Below the pieces are notes generated by a model, which saw only the letters and a program-made list of their open reading frames with translations, made no database searches and had not been told where the DNA came from. A program made the translations under genes and the position numbers. Positions 45,729 through 57,668 of a DNA stretch of 64,000 nucleotides are shown in pieces (the first letter of the stretch is position 1; each line of letters begins with the position of its first letter). Source of the stretch: Melampsora larici-populina 98AG31 (taxonomy: Eukaryota; Basidiomycota; Pucciniomycetes; Pucciniales; Melampsoraceae); the NCBI RefSeq assembly GCF_000204055.1, contig NW_006768769.1:580699-644698 (forward strand), in the 5' to 3' direction.

Positions 45729-45891
45729 AGAGTATGCGGGCATGCCCGCAACAGTTGAACCATGATAGTATTTTTTCTGGTCAGAAATTCTGTAAGTGCG
45801 CGCACCCTTACGTAACATCAATTGTAAGTACTATGTAGTTCCAGTGAGGTGATACTGGTTTAGTACAGTCAAACCAGAATCGCTTGGCCGA

Positions 45892-46097
45892 TGTTATGAA
45901 CTGGTTCTATTTCACTTGAGTGACATATTCACATTACATGTCACAAGCTCGAGAACCATCTTATAGTTGTAGATACATTGCCTGTACAGATTTTCCCTCA
46001 TCCGACAATCCACATAGGAAGACTGGTAATAGATACAAATCCTCACCAGAACTCCCTTGACCCTCGTCGCCGAAAACCCCCAAGTCTGTCCATAACA
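45892..46097 (+). repeat. 5' LTR of the chromovirus
   Basis: 206 bp, identical to the 3' LTR. It contains ATCCGACAAT at 46000-46009, complementary to the sequence just past the LTR (46099-46108). Confidence 0.95.
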
Positions 46098-46098
46098 T

Positions 46099-46108
46099 AT
46101 TGTCGGAT
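46099..46108 (+). promoter_or_regulatory. Candidate self-priming primer binding site
   Basis: ATTGTCGGAT begins one base after the 5' LTR and is the exact reverse complement of ATCCGACAAT inside the LTR (46000-46009). In Tf1/sushi-type elements the 5' end of the transcript folds back on such a site and primes minus-strand synthesis without a tRNA. That mechanism is known for the group; its use here is inferred. Confidence 0.55.
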
Positions 46109-46508
46109 CTATAGACGAGACTCAAGGACTATAGATAGATCACCAAGAAGAAACAAGTAGAATTGACTTAAATCAAAAGAAAACCGAACCTCAAGATTCA
46201 GAATACTAGCGAATCTCGACCTCATTAGAAAACCTTATCTAGATCTCAGAAATTCAAAGTTGAAAAGACCCAAGAAACTATTCGAAATCGAAAACCTTAT
46301 TAACTAATCTGCATACGCTGAAACCGAATCCACCAGAACCTTATCTTACTTACTAAAAACTCTGTCGATCCCGACTGTGATCCCTGGACTAGCAAACGCA
46401 ACCACGTCTCCATCTTACCGTGCTCCTTTAGAGGAGGAGGACTCTGATAGTGAAACTCCGATCCCTTTTCTCGACGCCGATTCTAGCCTTACCGGTAGCG
46501 AGATCGAT

Positions 46509-47591
46509 ATGTCTGACACCAACATGACCTCTCTCGAAGACATACAACGCAAGCTTGCGGAGCTTTCCACCTCATTGGCTGAAGAACGCCTGATGCGAGG
46601 ACAAGCTGAAGCCAGATACCAGCAGTCCGAAGCTCGTTTAGCGGCGTTGGAATCCCGAGGCCCATCTGCACCTGCTGCAGCCACTCAACCACCCACTCCG
46701 CCACAGCCACCACCAGCTGAACCGGTCCTGAAGGGCCCCAAAGTCTCGACGCCCGATAAATTCAACGGCGCTCGAGGCGAACCCGCAGAGATCTTTGCGA
46801 GTCAAGTCCAGCTCTATATGCTGGCACACCCCTACCTCTTCCCCGACGACCGAAGTAAGGTGGTTTTCTCGCTGTCTTACCTCACGGGAGCAGCCAGCAG
46901 TTGGGCGCAACCCTTGACAAAGGAGTTATTCGACCCCGCTACCGCCCACCTCGTAACCTTTGAACGCTTCGTTACAAATTTTAAAGCTATGTATTTCGAT
47001 ACTGAGAAGAAATCGAAGGCGGAACGCGCGCTGCGAAACTTATCGCAGAAGACCACCGTGGCCGCGTATACCCATGAATTTAACATTCACGCAACTTCTA
47101 CTGGCTGGGAAACTCCGACGCTCATTAGTCAATACGAGCAAGGTTTGAAAAAGGAGATTAGAGTGGCAATGGTTATGACGCAAGAGGATTTCACGTCAAT
47201 TGAACAACTCACTAATTTAGCTATCAAGATAGACAGTAAATTACACGGCGCGACCAACCCAACCTTCCATACGCCAAGCACGAGTGCAGGAATCTCAGAC
47301 CCCAATGCCATGGACTTATCAGCCGCCTACGTTAGATTGTCCGAAGAGGAACGAGCACGACGTATGCGAGCGGGTTTATGCTTCCGCTGCAATGGCCAGG
47401 GTCACATCTCCAGCGCATGTCCCGATCGTAGAGCTAGTAGGAAAGGGAAGGGTCGAGGTGGTTATCAATCAAAAATAGCTGGATTGGAAATTAAAGTCGC
47501 AGAGTTGAGTAATCAGAGGGTGAATCATACCAGTAGTTTAGAAGGAGTAGGACGAGCTGAAACTTCAAAAAATGGAGAAGCTCAGGATTGA
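46509..47591 (+). CDS. gag: Chromovirus Gag with CCHC zinc knuckle
   Basis: The first in-frame ATG is at 46509 (360 residues). The same frame is open back to a TAA at 46305 but has no ATG there. The N-terminus has a coiled-coil-like stretch (LEDIQRKLAELSTSLAEERL) and a Pro-rich linker. The capsid-like region follows (KFNGARGEPAEIFASQVQLY; GAASSWAQPL; LRNLSQKTTVAAYTHEF). Near the end is the knuckle CFRCNGQGHISSAC with C-x2-C-x4-H-x4-C spacing and a basic tail. Gag packages the element RNA. The frame ends at TGA 47589 just after an A-rich slippery site. Confidence 0.92.
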   Translation: MSDTNMTSLEDIQRKLAELSTSLAEERLMRGQAEARYQQSEARLAALESRGPSAPAAATQPPTPPQPPPAEPVLKGPKVSTPDKFNGARGEPAEIFASQVQLYMLAHPYLFPDDRSKVVFSLSYLTGAASSWAQPLTKELFDPATAHLVTFERFVTNFKAMYFDTEKKSKAERALRNLSQKTTVAAYTHEFNIHATSTGWETPTLISQYEQGLKKEIRVAMVMTQEDFTSIEQLTNLAIKIDSKLHGATNPTFHTPSTSAGISDPNAMDLSAAYVRLSEEERARRMRAGLCFRCNGQGHISSACPDRRASRKGKGRGGYQSKIAGLEIKVAELSNQRVNHTSSLEGVGRAETSKNGEAQD

Positions 47592-48325
47592 AGGTTGTGC
47601 CCATCCTGAGCCACCTGGAGAATTTGTCATCAATTAATGTGGGATCTAGTAGAATGAACTTGTGCAATACAAACGACCCGCGCATTTTTTTACACACCAC
47701 ATTATCCATGTCCCAAATTCCCCGAGCCACACCGTCCCAAACATTTCCCGCTACGTTCCTCATTGATTCAGGTGCTACGCACGATGTGCTCAGTGAATCA
47801 TTTGCCTACCACGCTGGCTTGATAGCCGGTGCTGATCGACATGACCAATTGATCACTGGATTCGACGGCTCTGAGAGCCGATCTTCCTTCAAGACCCACC
47901 TTTTTATCAAATCCGACCCATTACCGACCCCATTCATCATTACAAGACTCAAAGACTCGTACGACGGCATACTTGGCATGCCATGGATCAAGAAAAACTT
48001 TCACCTGATTGACTGGAGTAAAAGTATGGTACACCCAGCCGAGACTCACGTTGCAACCACTTCATTGGTTTCGTATTGGCCGAAAACACCCTTATCTGGC
48101 CACTCTTTGGACCCCATGAGGGACGCTAGGCACAATTACGAGGGGATGTGTGTCAATTCTGACACGTTAGCATCCCCGCAATGTGAGTTCGAGAGTCCAG
48201 TTAATCCTAATCACCTTGAAACAGATGACAACCCTCTATCTCCCGATAGTTCCCCCCTTATCACGATTACACCCACCACGAACAACGAAAACCACGAACA
48301 CATCACGACACAAGACCCGGAGTGA
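47561..48325 (+). CDS. Chromovirus protease domain, -1 frame relative to Gag
   Basis: Open from a TGA at 47558 to the TGA at 48323. The LIDSGATHD motif (near 47755) is the aspartic protease active site, followed by YDGILGMPWIKK, a typical flap/C-terminal block. There is no good start codon upstream of the domain, consistent with expression by -1 shifting out of Gag. The region after the protease is a polar linker that ends at a stop, with reverse transcriptase continuing in yet another frame. Confidence 0.8.
   Translation, partial: NFKKWRSSGLKVVPILSHLENLSSINVGSSRMNLCNTNDPRIFLHTTLSMSQIPRATPSQTFPATFLIDSGATHDVLSESFAYHAGLIAGADRHDQLITGFDGSESRSSFKTHLFIKSDPLPTPFIITRLKDSYDGILGMPWIKKNFHLIDWSKSMVHPAETHVATTSLVSYWPKTPLSGHSLDPMRDARHNYEGMCVNSDTLASPQCEFESPVNPNHLETDDNPLSPDSSPLITITPTTNNENHEHITTQDPE
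47567..47573 (+). promoter_or_regulatory. Candidate -1 ribosomal frameshift heptamer
   Basis: A AAA AAT in the Gag frame fits X XXY YYZ. It lies in the 30-base window where a shift can work: after the protease-frame stop at 47558 and before the Gag stop at 47589. No downstream structure was computed. Confidence 0.5.
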
Positions 48326-51300
48326 ATACGGCCTCGTCCGTCCCGCCACAGAACCCCGACGATCCCAAGGAGGAGCCTCAGGGGCACGCAAGGAACAGTG
48401 ACGAGGGGGCTAATGTCTTTTTAGATATATCAACGCCCCCGCAATGTGAGTTTATTACTGATTCCAACCCATGTTCAACCCGAACAGCTGGCAAGCCTGT
48501 TTCTCCCTTGAATAACACATCAATCCAGGTCACAACAGCCAAGACGTCCTGGTCAACCTCAGCACGACTCGCCGCCGACAAAAAGAAACTCGAACCCGTC
48601 AAAGCTCTAGAGGAAATTGTCCCGTCTAGGTATCATAGGCACTTACACATGTTTAGGAAGTCCAATGCCCAACGCCTACCCCCGAGACGCCGCTACGACT
48701 TTCGTGTCGAACTGATACCAGGAGCTCAACCGCAGGCTAGCAGGATAATTCCATTATCACCAGCCGAGGACGCTGCTTTGGAGGAATTGGTGAATTCAGG
48801 CTTAGCCAACGGGACTATCCGTCGAACCACTTCGCCATGGGCTGCCCCTGTGTTATTCACAGGGAAGAAGGACGGCAATCTGCGCCCTTGTTTTGATTAC
48901 CGTAAGCTCAACGCCCTAACCGTCAAGAACAAATACCCACTACCGTTGACTATGGACTTAGTCGACAGTTTGCTGGATGCCGAAGACTTTACCAAGCTTG
49001 ATATGCGCAATGCGTACGGTAATCTTCGAGTAGCAGAGGGTGATGAGGATAAACTGGCCTTTATATGCAAACAAGGCCAGTTTGCACCTCTGACTATGCC
49101 TTTTGGGCCAACAGGCGCCCCTGGTTATTTCCAATACTTTATTCAAGATATCTTATTGGGACGTATAGGTAAAGACACCGCGGCCTTCTTGGATGACATT
49201 ATGATTTATACAAAGCCTAAAGTAGATCACGAAGGCGCTGTTGATGGTGTACTTGACGTCCTATCCAAGCATACACTCTGGCTGAAACCCGAAAAATGCG
49301 AGTTCTCGAAGAAGGAAATTGAATACCTTGGCCTTATTATCTCTAAGAATAAAATCAGAATGGACCCGACGAAAGTGAAAGCCGTCAAAGAATGGCCAGC
49401 ACCCCAATCAGTATCTGAACTCCAACGCTTCATTGGATTCGCCAATTTTTACCGACGTTTCATCGACCAATTTTCAAGAACCACAAGACCACTTCATAAT
49501 CTGACCAAGCTCAACGCGCACTATGTCTGGGATGAAAAATGCGAAAAAGCCTTTGAGAGCCTGAAGACCTCCTTCACCACCGCACCCGTACTGAAGATAG
49601 CCGATCCATACAAGCCGTTTACTCTGGAATGTGACTGCTCCGATTTTGCATTAGGAGCAGTGCTATCACAACGCAGCGAGGACGATGGAGAACTCCACCC
49701 AGTAGCTTACCTGTCCAGATCACTAGTCCAAGCTGAAAGGAACTACGAGATCTTTGATAAGGAACTACTGGCGATTGTCGCGTCTTTCAAAGAGTGGCGC
49801 CACTACCTGGAGGGAAACCCCAACCGCCTAGATGTGATAGTCTACATGGACCATCGTAACCTGGAGTCTTTCATGACAACCAAGCAGCTTACCCGCAGAC
49901 AGGCTCGATGGGCGGAGACACTGGGCTGTTTCGATTTCGTGATTAAATTCCGACCCGGCAGTAAAGCTACCAAACCAGATGCCTTATCTAGAAGACCGGA
50001 CCTGGCGCCTACTAACGAGGAAAAATTGACCTTTGGCCAGTTGTTAAGACCCGAAAACATCGGCCCAGACACGTTCCCGGTCGAGCTTGCTAGCGTAGAG
50101 GGGTTCTTTGAAGATGAAGTGGTTGCACTCGACAATTCTGAGCACTGGTTTGAGGTGGATGTATTGGGCATCGCTGAAACTGACACTAAGGCACCGGACA
50201 TTCCTACGGATGATCAAATTATACAACGAATCAGAGACGCAAGCAAAGAGTGTGACAGGATAGGGGAACTGATGAACGCAACCTTGAACCCGATATCAGC
50301 CAAGACGAAAGCAGCTTTGAAGCATTACAAAGTACAAGATGGTATCCTCTACAACCAAGGTAGAATAGAGGTACCTGACGTCGACGACATCAAATACTCA
50401 ATACTAAGAAGCAGACACGACTCATTGCTTGCGGGCCACCCAGGTCGAGCAAAGACTCTCGGATTGGTCAGGAGAAGCTTCATCTGGCCATCTCAGAAAG
50501 CGTACGTCAACAGGTACGTGGACGGTTGTGACTCTTGTCTAAGGGTTAAATCAACCACACAGAAACCCTTTGGGACTCTGGAGCCACTACCGATACCGGC
50601 TGGCCCGTGGACGGATATCTCATATGACCTTATCACCGGCCTCCCTGCATCAAACGGCTACGACAGCATATTAACCGTGGTGGATAGATTAACGAAAATG
50701 AGTCATTTCATTGCTTGTACTGAATCAATGTCGGCTGAAGACCTAGCAGATCTCATGATGAAGAACGTATGGAAGCTTCATGGAACTCCCAAGACGATAA
50801 TCTCAGATAGGGGTAGTATTTTCATTTCACAGATCACGGAAGAAATTGACAAACGCCTAGGTATACGCCTTCACCCGTCAACCGCTTTCCACCCACGTAC
50901 AGACGGTCAAAGCGAGATCGTCAATAAAGTAATCGAACAATATTTACGACATTTCGTTAAATATCGACAAGACGATTGGGAAAGTCTACTGCCCACAGCT
51001 GAGTTCTCGTATAACAACAAAGACCATGAATCCACGGGCATTTCACCGTTTAAAGCTAACTATGGATTTAACCCATCATTCAACAAAGTACCATCAGCTG
51101 AACAGTGTGTGCCAGCAGTAGAGAAGAGGATGCAAACACTCGCCGAAGTGCAATCTGAATTAAATCAATGTTTAGAATTAACTCAAGAGAAGATGAAAGA
51201 ACAATTTGACAAAAGAGTACAACAAACACCAAGATGGGAAGTAGGAGACCAAGTCTGGTTGAACGGACGAAACATTTCGACAACTAGGCCAAGCCCAAAA

Positions 51301-51699
51301 TTAGAAAATAGATGGCTAGGTCCTTTCTTCATTATCCAAAAGATATCAAATTCTACTTATAAATTGAATCTCCCTCTTTCCATGAAAAGCGTCCATCCTG
51401 TATTTCATGTCTCTGTACTCAGGAAACATAACCCGGATACAATACATCAACAAAAACAACCCCCAGTCGAACCAATCATAATACAGGATGAAGAAGAATG
51501 GGAAGTCAACGAGATACTAGATTGTAGAAGAAGGTACAACAAGAAGGAATACTTTGTGAGTTGGAAAGGATTTGGCAAGGAAAACAATTCATGGGAACCC
51601 GAAATCAACCTCAAGAATAGTCAAGATTTAGTTAATGAGTTTAATTTAAAATATCCCGACACAACAAATAAGTACAAAAGGAGAAGGCGGAAGAAGTGA
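48322..51699 (+). CDS. pol: Chromovirus Pol: reverse transcriptase, RNase H, integrase, chromodomain
   Basis: A 1125-codon frame (open from 48250, no ATG near its start). Reverse transcriptase spans about residues 125-370, with the FLDD box at about 289-292. RNase H begins near 430 (TLECDCSDFALGAVLSQ). The integrase zinc finger (H...H...C-x2-C) lies at about 690-735. Its catalytic core has the three acidic residues at about 768, 827 and 863, with DD35E spacing (ISDRGS to GQSE). A C-terminal chromodomain at about 1055-1100 (EEWEVNEILDCRR, YFVSWKGFG, NSWEP) defines a chromovirus and would steer integration to marked chromatin. The N-terminal frame differs from the protease frame; see the junction findings. 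Confidence 0.95.
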   Translation: MNTASSVPPQNPDDPKEEPQGHARNSDEGANVFLDISTPPQCEFITDSNPCSTRTAGKPVSPLNNTSIQVTTAKTSWSTSARLAADKKKLEPVKALEEIVPSRYHRHLHMFRKSNAQRLPPRRRYDFRVELIPGAQPQASRIIPLSPAEDAALEELVNSGLANGTIRRTTSPWAAPVLFTGKKDGNLRPCFDYRKLNALTVKNKYPLPLTMDLVDSLLDAEDFTKLDMRNAYGNLRVAEGDEDKLAFICKQGQFAPLTMPFGPTGAPGYFQYFIQDILLGRIGKDTAAFLDDIMIYTKPKVDHEGAVDGVLDVLSKHTLWLKPEKCEFSKKEIEYLGLIISKNKIRMDPTKVKAVKEWPAPQSVSELQRFIGFANFYRRFIDQFSRTTRPLHNLTKLNAHYVWDEKCEKAFESLKTSFTTAPVLKIADPYKPFTLECDCSDFALGAVLSQRSEDDGELHPVAYLSRSLVQAERNYEIFDKELLAIVASFKEWRHYLEGNPNRLDVIVYMDHRNLESFMTTKQLTRRQARWAETLGCFDFVIKFRPGSKATKPDALSRRPDLAPTNEEKLTFGQLLRPENIGPDTFPVELASVEGFFEDEVVALDNSEHWFEVDVLGIAETDTKAPDIPTDDQIIQRIRDASKECDRIGELMNATLNPISAKTKAALKHYKVQDGILYNQGRIEVPDVDDIKYSILRSRHDSLLAGHPGRAKTLGLVRRSFIWPSQKAYVNRYVDGCDSCLRVKSTTQKPFGTLEPLPIPAGPWTDISYDLITGLPASNGYDSILTVVDRLTKMSHFIACTESMSAEDLADLMMKNVWKLHGTPKTIISDRGSIFISQITEEIDKRLGIRLHPSTAFHPRTDGQSEIVNKVIEQYLRHFVKYRQDDWESLLPTAEFSYNNKDHESTGISPFKANYGFNPSFNKVPSAEQCVPAVEKRMQTLAEVQSELNQCLELTQEKMKEQFDKRVQQTPRWEVGDQVWLNGRNISTTRPSPKLENRWLGPFFIIQKISNSTYKLNLPLSMKSVHPVFHVSVLRKHNPDTIHQQKQPPVEPIIIQDEEEWEVNEILDCRRRYNKKEYFVSWKGFGKENNSWEPEINLKNSQDLVNEFNLKYPDTTNKYKRRRRKK

Positions 51700-51794
51700 G
51701 AGGGCTATGCTTTTTCCCACTGGGTTTTTTAACGCAGCCCGTGGAAAGAATGCAGGGCTTGCAAGAGGAAGCTTGGGCATTAAAGGGGGGATAA

Positions 51795-52000
51795 TGTTAT
51801 GAACTGGTTCTATTTCACTTGAGTGACATATTCACATTACATGTCACAAGCTCGAGAACCATCTTATAGTTGTAGATACATTGCCTGTACAGATTTTCCC
51901 TCATCCGACAATCCACATAGGAAGACTGGTAATAGATACAAATCCTCACCAGAACTCCCTTGACCCTCGTCGCCGAAAACCCCCAAGTCTGTCCATAACA
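51795..52000 (+). repeat. 3' LTR of the chromovirus
   Basis: 206 bp, identical to the 5' LTR. It is preceded by a purine-rich tract and followed by the GCCGA target duplication, after which the mariner sequence resumes. Confidence 0.95.
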
Positions 52001-52191
52001 GCCGATCCAATTTTTATTTAATCTTTTTCACAGAAATACAGGCAAAGCTATAAGCATAGCCTTGTACTTGCATTGAATTTCGAACTGGGGCTGTTGACCA
52101 AATTGGTCAACAGCTCAGCTATTCAACCACCACATCTCCCTTGATTGCTTTCTTATTATCTTAATCTTTTGTTTTCTTCATCTATCCCACC

Positions 52192-53335
52192 ATGCCTTAC
52201 GTCAAATATACGGCTCAAGTGAAAGTTATTGCCCTCACAAAGTTCATGGCCGGTCAAACCATGAAATCGATCAACGAAGACTTGACCACTGCGATCTCAG
52301 CCCATTCCTTCTCTTGGTGGAAGTCTCTCTACGACAAGACTCAAGCAGTTGTGAGGAGTCCGGCTACCTACAAAAAACGTGGTCGTAAAACCATTCACTC
52401 CGACATTGATTGTCAGTTCATGGTTGAACTCCTTGAAGCCAATCCGACAATGTTCCTAGACAAGATCCAAGAAGCGATGTACGATCACACCGATCTCATC
52501 GCTTGTCGACAAACTATAGCGAACGATTTAAAAGAGAGACTCTTTCTTACTGTTCACAAAGCCTCCAAGGTCGACATCAATCAATCACCCAAACGTCGAG
52601 CAATCTATTCCGGCCAAGTTGCTCATTTGCCATCCAAGTGTTTGGTATTCTTAGGTTAGTCAAACTTTCACTTCTTCATTCCAATCCACAATCTCCATGA
52701 TTCTGATTTCATTTTGTTCTTATATATATGAAGACGAGACCGGTCTTCGGCCACAGGATGTGCAAAGGAACAAGGTTCTATCTCAAAAAGGAGAACGTCC
52801 AAAGGCTTTGAGACGCACCAGGGCCGGTTCTCACTATAGCATGCTAGCGGCGATCTGCGAGTTGGGGTTACTGGCAGTCAACGCCAAGGTGAATGCCTAC
52901 CACCGAAACGAATTCGAAGCATTTTTAAAACACGTTTTAGTAAGTGTTTTCTCTCTCTTTGAATTGTTATTGAGCAAGTTAAGCTGATTATCACGGATTT
53001 TAATCAAGCTTCCTGTCATGCGGCCGTACCCAGAGCGAAACTCGGTCTTGGTCTTGGATAACGTGTCAATCCATCACCGTGGAGCCATTGAAGCGCTGTG
53101 TGATGCAGTAGGGGTTGTCCTAGTTTACTTATCACCTTATTCGCCATCTTTCAACCCAATCGAGCGAACGTTCAAGGTGTTCAAGGATGCCCTTCGTCGG
53201 AACGGGCTTTTTGCTGAGGCGCTGGACAAGATGGGTTGTATGAAGAGAGTAATGAGTCATATCTGTACCAGCACATTCATGAAGAGTCTTTATGCGACTT
53301 GTGGGTACAGAAAAAAAGAGTATGCAGAGGTGTAA
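52192..53335 (+). CDS. Tc1/mariner (IS630 superfamily) DD34E transposase
   Basis: Three exons (52192-52654, 52734-52939, 53009-53335) in phase give 331 residues. The N-terminal 150 residues look like helix-turn-helix DNA binding (KVIALTKFMAGQTMKSINED; YKKRGRKTI). The catalytic domain has VFLDETG across intron 1, LVLDNVSIHH in exon 3, and NPIERTFKVFK. There are 34 residues between the second Asp and the Glu (DD34E), and YSPSFNPIE is the family hallmark. All three acidic residues are intact. It should cut at the element's inverted repeats and insert at TA. The gene lies about 130 bp inside the restored left end and converges with the second element gene. Confidence 0.93.
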
Positions 53336-53543
53336 AGAACAAAGTTGTAAAATTTCTTCATGTTTCTATTTCTAAAAAAATCAAACACGTGTATCTTATC
53401 CAAAATGATTGAAGAAATGAACTTATTTTTCTCTACTCTAAACACAATTGAGTGCAACTTGAACATGAATCAATTTGATTCAAATAGCAAACTAATTTAT
53501 GATTGATGCGATGGCATGGACTGATTTCTGTGTTAGTCAGCAA

Positions 53544-53583
53544 CTGTAGAAATCAGTTCATGATCATGAACTGATTTCGACAG
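53544..53583. terminator. 40-bp palindrome between convergent element genes
   Basis: A perfect 30-bp palindrome centred on TCATGATCATGA is extended to 40 bp with one mismatched pair. Related half-sites (AGTTCATGATCA) recur to about 53632. It sits between the 3' ends of the transposase and the convergent gene, so a bidirectional 3'-end or insulator role is possible, but unproven. Confidence 0.35.
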
Positions 53584-53876
53584 CTCAAGATTTCGACAGT
53601 TCAACAGTTCATGATCAGTTCATGATCATGAACTTCTGTCAATATGATCATATCTCAGTTTTATCAAATCAATGACTCAAAACATTGAGTGAGTAGTTTG
53701 GCGCATTAAATGTTTCACTAAAAAACCATTTCATTACACAACAGTCATACAAAACAGGCGGATAATAATGTATACAAGTACTTTAGTTATAGTATACTGT
53801 AGCTACAAATTTTAACAGTACTCTTTGAGAAGAGGGCGGATCAGTACATTTTTTTTAAGGTCGGAAGAAAGAAGGA

Positions 53877-56009
53877 TTAAGACAGAGCCAATCTGTTTCT
53901 CTTCTTGAGTTCCTCTCGATACAACGTAGGCTTTTGATGAAGGCGAAGAGCAGGTCCAAATTTGAACCCAAACTCTCTCATCTTTGCAAAACTAAGCTCT
54001 TCGGATGAAAACATTTCGAAATCCACGATATTATATTTCTTGACAAGGTCTCGAGTTTTTTGATCCTCTGGGCCGATCAAACAAAACTTGAGGTAGTCCT
54101 CAATTGGAGGAGGGGTCCCTGGGGATGGTAAATCTGATTGAGGTGCAGCAACAGCTGCTTGGTTTTTGTTGTTGTTCAAGGCCAGCAGAGCACTGATGGT
54201 GTCGAGCGCAGAATTCGAGGTTGATTGGTTGTTTGATTTCGATGTCGGAACCAAGGAAACCCATTTGAACTCCGGGCCGCGAGGTGGTTTCCTGATTGTG
54301 ACACCTTGTTTCTTTTTTACCTGTGTCAAAAAGATCAAGGATAGTTAGTCTCTTGTTTTCATAAAATAAGATGAAGATTGGAGCTGAGAGGAACTTACAA
54401 GATCATTTGCCCAGATGTCAAATCCCAGATGACTGATCGACATCGCCTGGTCGGGGTTCTCGATGTTAAGACATCCCATGCACTCCCTGCCGTTAATCAA
54501 GAAATCACTATACAAGGCCATCAACGTCGTTAGTTGGGCCTGAACTGCTGCATCGATATCTATACTCTGTTGTAGAAGAGCGATGAAGAGGATGATTGAT
54601 CAGAAAAAAATTGGAAAAAGAAAGTAAAGGTGAAAGAAACACACCGGCATCTCTATCTCATCTTGTTGAGCCGGAGCCAATGCATTAGGAATATGATGGT
54701 GCATTGCTTGATTGAATTTTAATGCCTGTTTGTTAATTCAAGATGTTAATGGACGTATCACTTCAAGATTGAGATTGAGAAGATTATTTGACTTACCTTA
54801 GAAGTAGTTTGTTCTTGAGTCTTTGGGTTCATCATGTCAAAACAAAACCCAACCTCGTTGTTGGGTTTCTTGATCATCATATTCTTGAAATCGTCCAATA
54901 TGGATTCCATGTTGATTACCGGCAACAGTGACTTACCAAAAGCCTCACCGTAATTAATGTAGCCCTTGAGGGTTACTCGTCCTTCGTCATCGGCATCTCT
55001 GAGTAAAGTGCCACATCCTCTCATGTGTGCGTTGCATGCCCGAAATAGATCAGTCTTCAAATCCAGAAGGGATCGGCCATGGATGTGGAGGAGGATGTCA
55101 AAATATGGCTTGGTGTGATGGTCGGAGTAGGTTAATGGAACACCTGACCGTTTCTGGGCATCCGTGAGGCCATCAGCTATGAAAACGTGGAAGGCGAGTT
55201 TTGCACGGGTCGGTTTGGATTCGGTGGTGGCTACAACGGGCGATTTGGAAGCTTGAGTTGCTTGTGGAGCTGGACTCGGTGAAACCGTCAGATCCACATC
55301 AATATGTGGATCTAAAGAACAAATTTCAGGATTAATATCAACCAAGGTTTCAATAGATAGAAACATTGGAACACTCACTTGACCCAGCCGAACGAACTCG
55401 AGTTCCAGTCGCTTGACCACCAAACATGGGATCTCTATGGACCACGTTTGGATCATTGCGATGGTGGTCTCCAACGGCCGCGGTTGGAGATCCTTGAACA
55501 GCTTGTTGACTAGAACTCGGTAAAGGAGCGGTATCGACGTGGGCATCTATAGATGCGATACAAGTTAGTTGAAATAATATGAGAGGCTGTAAATTGAGAC
55601 AAAACACTGACCAGGACGAAGATGAAAGGGACAAGGAAACTCCCGAAAGCCTACCTTGGCAAAGGGGTTGACATGGACCAAATCGATATCGCGGTATTGT
55701 TGTTTACCGTATCGACCATTCTCCCAATGATGACCGGGTCTGAAAACCAAAGAGAAGATGATCAGACTCAGACAATGAAAGAGAAAAAAAAGGTTAGGAA
55801 CTCACTTATCAAAATAGCAAGGAGTCCCAGTCCTGCCGGAATCAGGACTAAGGCCTTCTGGCCCAGCCTGACGGGCTCGGCGTCGCGCACTATAAAATAT
55901 GACCATTAGTAATGATCATGAAAAGAAACGATAGAAATTGAACTTACAAATCCTTCTTTCTCGCCTCTTCTTCATCAGCGAGCTCTTTCTTAGTTTTTCG
56001 GGTGGGCAT
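53877..56009 (-). CDS. Mariner-borne accessory protein of unknown function with SAM-like C-terminus
   Basis: Eight exons (56009-55948, 55889-55806, 55739-55612, 55546-55379, 55311-54797, 54725-54645, 54566-54399, 54320-53877) in unbroken phase give 549 residues. The N-terminus is highly charged (RKTKKELADEEEARKK). Next comes a CYFDKPGHHWENGRYGKQQY segment, then a Ser/Pro/His-rich linker. A probable globular core follows (FHVFIADGL, KPYFDILLHIHGRSLLDLKT, ACNAHMRGCGTLL), with GRECMGC and HLGFDIWANDL blocks after it. Residues about 470-545 (EDYLKFCLIG, YNIVDFEMFSSEEL, FGFKFGPALRLHQK) read like a SAM-type helical domain. I do not recognise the family. It lies wholly inside the mariner ends, so it is carried as cargo or is a second transposition protein. 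Confidence 0.8.
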
Positions 56010-56030
56010 GTTGGTATCGCATGGGTATTG

Positions 56031-56084
56031 GGGCTATTGGAAGGTATTGGAAGATATTGGAAGATATTGGAAGGTATTGGAAGG
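56031..56084. repeat. Five-unit decamer repeat (AAGRTATTGG)
   Basis: Units of ten bases repeat just upstream of the accessory-gene ATG, in its leader or promoter. They could be protein-binding sites for element regulation. Confidence 0.8.
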
Positions 56085-56177
56085 TGAAGGAGTGGTGAAG
56101 GAGTGGTGGATCGAGGGCAATGAGGTGAAAGGGTCAACAGCCCAAATTCAATCGAGGGTATCTCGATTGAAGGCTAT

Positions 56178-56257
56178 ATATGCTTATAGCTTTGCCTGTA
56201 TTGCTGTGAAAAAGATTAAATAAAAATTGGATCGGCCAAGCGATTCTGGTTTGACTG
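56178..56257 (-). repeat. Right terminal inverted repeat of the mariner element
   Basis: Complement of the interrupted left repeat (45866-45891 plus 52006-52061), with one mismatch and an ATAT insertion at its inner end. Similarity continues imperfectly to a CTGTTGACC word on both sides. Confidence 0.9.
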
Positions 56258-56259
56258 TA

Positions 56260-57668
56260 TTTACCACCAGAGAGATCAAAATTTTTATCAACTTGTAAAA
56301 CATATGCAATTCTGAATGGGATGGATTGGATTGTCAATGGCCGGATTAGAAATGTGATTGAAAGATAATGTTTGGTTATGATGTTATGAATAGTGTTTTT
56401 CTAGTCTTGATTGTGTTAGTTTTTCCTGATTTACTTCAAAGGTCTATTGGGTGATCTGAATTGAGATAAGCAAAATTGTTAAATTTTCTTATTCAGTTCT
56501 TTGATAATCAATCAATTGTGAAATCTTACAACATTCATGGTACCCAAAGCTGTGTGTATTTTGCTGTGTATTGGTTTTTTATTTGCAGCTGGACATGACC
56601 CGGAAAAAGTCTATGTAGTGCAAATGAAGATCCTTGCCGATGGAAGCAAGATTTGATGAGGTCTGTGACCCTCATAATGGGCAAAAACAAAAAAATGACC
56701 AAAAATCTTGCTGTTGTGAGTATAAAAACATGACATTAGCCGTAAAAAACAGCCTTAAAACTCAAGGTCAGAATCAGGCCTTGGGGGCACGAAAATTTTT
56801 TTGCGCCAATCGATTTTGCGCCAAAGTGAGAGGGTTTGTGAGCTTCTGAATAGGCTCAATTGATAGCCCTAGTTCATGCGCATCTTTTGATGTGATCTGC
56901 ACCTTCAGACGAAGAGTGGTGCGTTGTGTAGAGCCCAAAAACTGAAAAATACGTTTCGTCACATACATCTATAGGCTCATTCCTGGGTCCTATTTGAAGG
57001 CAATTGTCACAAGTAGCTCTCGTTGAAATGGGCACGAGGTTTATCCAGACAAAGTGGGTGCTTTTGCGTTTTTGAAAAACCTTCCAGCCAAACTCGAATT
57101 TTGCACTCCCTGCCCACACACCAAGACCGGCTGATAATTCCCAAGTCCCTCTGCAGACAACCGAGCCCGCGAGGAAAACGTGTTAGTTAAGTTGGATCAA
57201 TCATTATTTGTTCAACCCCCTTGCAAAAAGGACTCTGTGCTGCGCTCGTTGATACATACTAGGCTATCATAAAATAGGGTGGTGATATGCTTCGAGGGAG
57301 GCGATACAAAGGAGTTACCGAGCTTCATCAGGGCTCTGGGTTAAGCATTTTGGGACTTGAGATTGTCAAGGTAGCGAATCAGTCGTCATGCTGCTTTGGC
57401 CATCCCTACAAACTTTTTTTCTTCGACCCCATAGAAAGCTGATGATCACCATCATCGCTTGAATTGATCTCGTCTTCAATAATCTAATTCCCACCTCATC
57501 TAAGATCAAGCAAGTCCTCACAGATTAATCATAATCCCAATTTCCCCCAATCATTCCGTAACCATCTTCAAAGAGGACTCGCACATTGGTGGAGGACAAT
57601 CGAGTGCAGCCTGGTCTGCAAGACCTGAGTTGGTGGACTGTCTGTGTTTGTGAAGACAGTCATCAATC
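56260..57668. other. Intergenic, no gene seen
   Basis: Flank of the transposon and upstream region of the CSC1-like gene. The final 150 bp before its ATG are likely promoter and leader. Confidence 0.4.

Follow-up and report, generated by a model that had tools for sequence, protein, structure and literature searches.

A Tc1/mariner-type transposon of the rust fungus Melampsora larici-populina with a recurrent second gene paired by class with its transposase

Tc1/mariner elements are textbook single-protein movers, usually one to two kilobases long. In this study, we analysed a 64,000-nucleotide stretch of the Melampsora larici-populina 98AG31 genome (contig NW_006768769.1, positions 580,699 to 644,698 of the forward strand; hereafter the window) and found a Tc1/mariner-type transposon at 45866-56257. 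Between its inverted repeats lie a transposase gene of 331 amino acids with the D-D-34-E (DD34E) motif and a convergent eight-exon gene for a protein of 549 amino acids, here called the accessory gene. The pair recurs across the genome in three diverged classes, and we give a probability of about 0.5 to the reading that this is a two-component Tc1/mariner lineage in which the second protein is the cognate partner of its own-class transposase. The anatomy, the recurrence, the class-specific pairing and the correlated divergence are read from the genome sequence, and from them we infer the biochemical role of the second protein as a transposase partner.

Results

Recurrence of the gene pair in three classes

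We searched the genome (98.3 Mb, 243 contigs) with exons of both genes. The search with transposase exon 1 gave 42 matches at 56% identity or more, followed by a gap down to 45%, and a convergent accessory gene was present within 9 kb of 40 of these 42 class A matches. The two without it were C5:1437247, where the transposase model (L049) is broken, and C20:1191312. Near more diverged transposases, the C-terminal exon gave weak matches which, together with reads of further loci, led to two further classes, B (genes at L047, L052 and L053) and C (genes at L050 and L051). The class B and class C transposase sets were the 85 (at least 61%) and 41 (at least 54%) matches above score gaps among the best 150 each, and a convergent accessory gene lay within 9 kb in 77 and 36 of them, respectively. 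Over all classes, 153 of 168 transposase matches had a convergent accessory gene; random placement within contigs, tried 500 times, gave 6.5 on average and 16 at most. Independent copies in this genome thus hold the gene in the same place, as the preliminary description of the window had proposed to check.

Seen from the accessory side, the class A core exon gave 51 matches at 48 loci, 43 of which had a convergent class A-type transposase match within 9 kb. The remaining five were C185, C38, C45, C50 and C7:1053286; four of them could be modelled, each as a partial gene with at least one stop. The class B and class C core-exon searches gave 112 and 53 matches at 107 and 53 loci, respectively, so that the three classes amount to more than 200 core-exon loci in one rust genome. 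A convergent transposase was found at 78 or more of the class B loci and at 39 or more of the class C loci. The gene does not occur mainly outside such ends, judging by this adjacency in class A and by the TACAG-type terminus on the accessory side of 25 of 28 class A loci. Both ends were read at few loci, and these carried both genes inside TA-flanked inverted repeats: the window, C7 (L011 with L055), L047, L050 and L052.

The pairing followed class. Within 9 kb, class A transposases had A accessory genes only and class B transposases B accessory genes only, and class C transposases had C accessory genes except for one locus with an A-type match; within 15 kb, an A-type accessory match also lay near two class B loci. 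The nearest own-class neighbour within 15 kb was convergent in 155 of 156 cases, and 12 of the 168 transposase matches had no such neighbour. Identity to the window was correlated between transposase exon 3 and the accessory core (Spearman 0.82, 38 loci) and between transposase exon 1 and the accessory core (0.61, 35 loci).

We then compared the accessory classes with each other. Classes A and B gave a collinear profile alignment (P 4.5e-6, probability 87%). By block, the values were P 9e-5 (59%) for the core, P 4.9e-6 (86%) for the C-terminal block and a weak P 0.008 (5%) for exon 7, and the mismatched controls gave 0.12, 0.25 and 6e-4, the last being little higher than the core value. Class C aligned with class A at 25% over most of its length in splice alignments at two loci. 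The three classes are probably one homologous family by these comparisons, in which class B genes entered through three conserved blocks only and neither class B nor class C had better than partial or weak models.

Constraint on the accessory gene

Splice models of class A accessory genes scored above 700 at 29 of the 46 loci scanned; 19 of them had eight exons and 12 had no in-frame stop. For 11 stop-free, near-full-length models, the ratio of non-synonymous to synonymous change (dN/dS) was 0.18-0.37 in 46 of 55 pairs. Silent sites were saturated in the remaining nine, and the silent distance (dS) exceeded 1 in many of the 46. A close and informative pair, L024/L025, had a dS of 0.13 and a dN/dS of 0.27. 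Picking stop-free models favours intact copies, and the dN/dS still records constraint while these copies diverged. On these codon comparisons, the accessory gene has evolved under purifying selection, which agrees with the preliminary description's view that it is maintained. The transposase dN/dS was 0.10-0.14 in 4 defined pairs of 10. The accessory value is roughly double the transposase value, as would suit a factor involved in specificity or conflict.

Anatomy of the element

The matching inverted ends with TA duplications in the preliminary description were found exactly at 45866 and 56257. Each terminus is bordered by TA and begins CAGTC, and the terminal inverted repeats are 79 bp long with one mismatch, the left copy being split by a retrotransposon. 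Its claim of an open DD34E transposase gene and an open convergent eight-exon gene for 549 residues, both spliced in phase, also held, with GT-AG borders for every intron of both genes. Its picture of a single two-gene element over the whole interval stood for the ends and the genes and failed for the length: 45892-52000 is an inserted Ty3 retrotransposon, which makes up most of the 10.4 kb, and removal of this insertion and its 5-bp duplication leaves an element of 4,278 bp. The features are listed in Table 1.

The transposase matched PF13358 (DDE_3) at 94.5 bits (cut-off 28.6). It has the D-D-34-E motif, and the 34-residue spacing was found in 10 of the 12 transposase models examined, with all three classes represented; the remaining two models each lacked a recognisable motif. 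The closest named relative of the window transposase was a partial M. larici-populina protein, with 66% identity across 70% of the length, and the top database match was at 67%.

An 8-bp box, TAAGCATA, mostly in the form TATAAGCATA, occurred 63-82 bp inside the accessory-side end at 18 of 23 loci, against 0.6% in shuffles. It was also present in the transposase-side end of the window element and of three of the four others examined. This TATA-like box in both ends probably provides matched promoters for the two genes. The spacer cluster at 53544-53634 consists of TTCATGATCATGAA-type palindromic repeats and is present also in the C68 copy (L027). Such clusters were not general, a repeated 9-mer being found in 6 of 26 loci.

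Table 1. Features of the two-gene transposon and its nested insertion (window coordinates)
Feature	Position	Strand	Basis
TA target-site duplication, left	45864..45865	.	sequence
Left terminal inverted repeat, outer 26 bp, same as right end	45866..45891	+	sequence
Nested Ty3/gypsy (chromodomain) long terminal repeat (LTR) retrotransposon, foreign to the element	45892..52000	+	LTR and duplication match
Left inverted repeat, remainder; starts with second GCCGA copy; 57 of 58 bases as in right end	52001..52058	+	
TAAGCATA box in left inverted repeat	52051-52058		
Transposase gene, 331 amino acids, DDE_3, DD34E; exons 52192-52654, 52734-52939, 53009-53335	52192..53335	+	
Spacer between the stop codons, 541 bp; palindromic repeat cluster at 53544-53634	53336..53876	.	
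Accessory gene, eight exons, 549 amino acids, no Pfam match	53877..56009	-	
Accessory exons	56009-55948, 55889-55806, 55739-55612, 55546-55379, 55311-54797, 54725-54645, 54566-54399, 54320-53877	-	
Right terminal inverted repeat; TAAGCATA at inner end, 56179-56186	56179..56257	-	
TA target-site duplication, right	56258..56259	.	sequence

Mobility and insertion site

Two accessory gene pairs, L013/L014 and L034/L036, were nearly identical, with silent differences of 0.011 and 0.019. Their accessory-side flanks, the side compared, were unrelated, with TA at each (nine pairs compared, agreeing at 6 to 18 of 42 flank bases), and the L013 and L014 transposase exons had the same scores at matching distances. 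Because near-identical copies have unrelated flanks, these comparisons indicate recent movement of copies that carry the accessory gene.

The two LTRs of the nested retrotransposon (206 bp; 45892-46097 and 51795-52000) are identical to each other, and a 5-bp target duplication, GCCGA, borders it at 45887-45891 and 52001-52005. The insertion looks recent, since the LTR has at least 40 copies at 100% in the genome (40 scored of 51 candidates). The window transposon is itself inserted in another repeat (flanks 45765-45865 and 56260-56360). Three paralogous copies of this flanking repeat without the element, at C10:1268581, C10:1868885 and C94:136578, run through the insertion point and differ by 4 nucleotides there. 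The preliminary description had proposed a check of empty sites; these paralogues are related empty sites and not alleles.

Ten genome loci matched the window inverted repeat at 76% or more. Six single-end matches among them had an equal score (81%), at C48:705041, C38:595113, C35:496665, C33:907658, C12:103467 and C3:2194778, and may form one non-autonomous family.

Relatives and domains of the accessory protein

The relatives of the accessory protein in the protein database were two Melampsora americana proteins, 80% and 61% identical, and the same two were returned by single sequence and by profile; scoring in this search was limited to the 7,995 candidates with the most shared words, and the result does not show that relatives are absent elsewhere. 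The closer one, P0001 (DFH28DRAFT_927356), is annotated as a hypothetical protein. A splice model guided by P0001 yielded the same accessory gene, the exon 3/4 boundary apart; at this boundary P0001 departs from the frame seen in the window gene and may be mis-annotated.

Pfam searches with the accessory protein gave no match at E values up to 1, and among others none to a zinc-finger, recombinase or TET/JBP domain. Ten family members gave one weak Pfam match (E 0.13) in one member, and the class B and class C models gave no meaningful one. The accessory profile had no match in the PDB. With a C-terminal profile, the best PDB matches were acetyltransferases, none with an E value better than 0.48; its matches in Pfam were weak and confined to single members. 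AlphaFold2 modelling of the M. americana homologue from a two-sequence input gave a mean predicted local distance difference test (pLDDT) score of 31. The C-terminal 87 residues were modelled with five helices at low confidence (pLDDT 48), and a fold search with this model gave no match. For a suspected resemblance of the C-terminus to a SAM domain, no SAM match was found by sequence, nor by the fold of the low-confidence model.

Discussion

We propose that the two genes form one unit of a cut-and-paste Tc1/mariner transposon whose matched ends would drive both genes from the same TATA-like box. The transposase would cut and join at TA, as its DDE domain and the duplicated TA at the ends suggest. 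The second protein would most likely be its partner, acting in DNA binding, assembly or regulation to enable or control the movement of its own class. The class pairing, the correlated divergence and the constraint fit such a transposase partner. A fuller version, to which we give somewhat less than even odds, is that this is an old two-component rust lineage whose movement needs a fast-evolving, class-specific partner of an undescribed family, kept through at least three classes, with exchange between them unseen in this genome.

By its DDE_3-type transposase, D-D-34-E spacing, TA target duplication and terminal inverted repeats, the element belongs with the IS630-Tc1-mariner group, and it differs from the usual member in its conserved second gene and its length of 4.3 kb. 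A single gene is a usual trait of the group and not a defining one, since the ciliate TBE/Tec elements have three. In the accessible part of PMC7325037, TBE/Tec elements are of the Tc1/mariner type with a DD34E transposase and further genes, and TBE elements have inverted repeats of about 80 bp and genes under purifying selection. The rust element resembles them in these respects and differs in having two genes instead of three, in its host, and in an accessory protein with no Pfam match in place of the TBE zinc-finger protein or the Tec recombinase. Multi-gene Tc1/mariner elements are thus already known in ciliates, and a fungal two-gene form was not recognised in the literature searched, which was mostly without subscription papers or Repbase. 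A rust transposon survey reports, in the sections available, a TIR-Tc1Mariner family retained in Melampsoraceae and mentions no accessory gene with it there (PMC12210899).

Extra genes are also found in other rust transposons. In the available portion of PMC12730594, PHISTA, a rust TET/JBP transposon, makes TA duplications and encodes a third, uncharacterised protein, and TET/JBP genes pass between transposase superfamilies; the word mariner is absent from the main text. The window element shares an extra gene with these transposons, and TA duplications with PHISTA. It differs from them in its transposase superfamily, in the lack of a TET/JBP domain in the accessory protein and in that no exchange between classes was seen. 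The Arabidopsis VANDAL elements have a transposase of the MuDR-type superfamily. They encode an extra protein, VANC, which the accessible text of PMC5735166 describes as matched to its own elements. The likeness lies in this matching; the differences lie in the transposase superfamily and in the rust element's want of general repeat arrays.

These systems bear on the second candidate in our ranking, that the protein is an anti-silencing factor, VANC-like or serving the same end as rust TET/JBP, which shields its own class and has no part in cutting or joining. We regard this as possible and less probable than a transposition partner. Class-specific pairing and faster change than in the transposase (0.18-0.37 vs 0.10-0.14) would fit an arms race, VANC proteins are matched to particular elements (PMC5735166, in part), and TET/JBP genes are reported from seven other rust transposon lineages in the part of PMC12730594 at hand; but the accessory protein has no Pfam match and therefore no TET/JBP domain, and the spacer repeat clusters that might be VANC-like targets occur at few loci. 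A regulator that limits or times transposition, such as a transposase repressor, would likewise suit class-specific pairing and the promoter-like box common to both ends. Nothing here separates it from a positive factor. Some lineages of active elements should have lost the gene if it were purely a repressor, and we place this reading well below anti-silencing, as rather improbable.

The preliminary description had also considered captured host cargo, a host gene with no role in transposition, and the intron-rich structure and lack of a known transposon domain would suit this. We consider it unlikely and rank it below a limiting regulator: no accessory homologue was found in a host-gene setting within this genome, 43 of 48 core-exon loci lie beside a convergent transposase and four of the other five are partial models with stops, the gene has kept its position in three diverged classes, and its changes are constrained. 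A nested retrotransposon does exist at this locus, and one could suppose a chance neighbourhood or two nested transposons. We rejected this as having next to no probability, given the 153 pairings among 168 matches (never more than 16 in 500 random trials), the fixed orientation and the shared ends.

Several points weigh against a partner role. Class pairing and correlated divergence would also follow simply from the linkage of two genes in one mobile unit. No known domain was found in the accessory protein, and its structure models are of low confidence. In-frame stops, one to four per model, occur in 17 of the 29 class A accessory models, either because the copies have decayed or because the models are in error. 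Among the other 108 exon 1 matches, below the gap, an accessory gene was detected with the present queries in only 24, so there may be transposase lineages that lack an accessory gene or whose accessory gene has diverged beyond detection. Of the ten loci that match the window inverted repeat, seven are single ends with no class A transposase or accessory match within 10 kb, one of them (C120) having a class B accessory match 7.5 kb off; these seven look non-autonomous. On whether most copies sharing these ends are without the gene, the answer is divided: coding copies nearly always have it (40 of 42), and, with single-end loci counted, most do not (7 of 10).

A fungal Tc1/mariner lineage that keeps such a class-paired second gene would offer a natural experiment on how a partner contributes to DD34E transposition, be it targeting, assembly, control or escape from silencing. 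The accessory proteins make up an unannotated family with more than 200 matching loci in one rust genome, homology between the classes being probable, and the findings suggest that two or more "hypothetical proteins" of Melampsora are encoded by transposons. Since the pairing recurs in far more than 100 related copies, the second gene has the look of a standard, working component of these transposons and not of a passenger.

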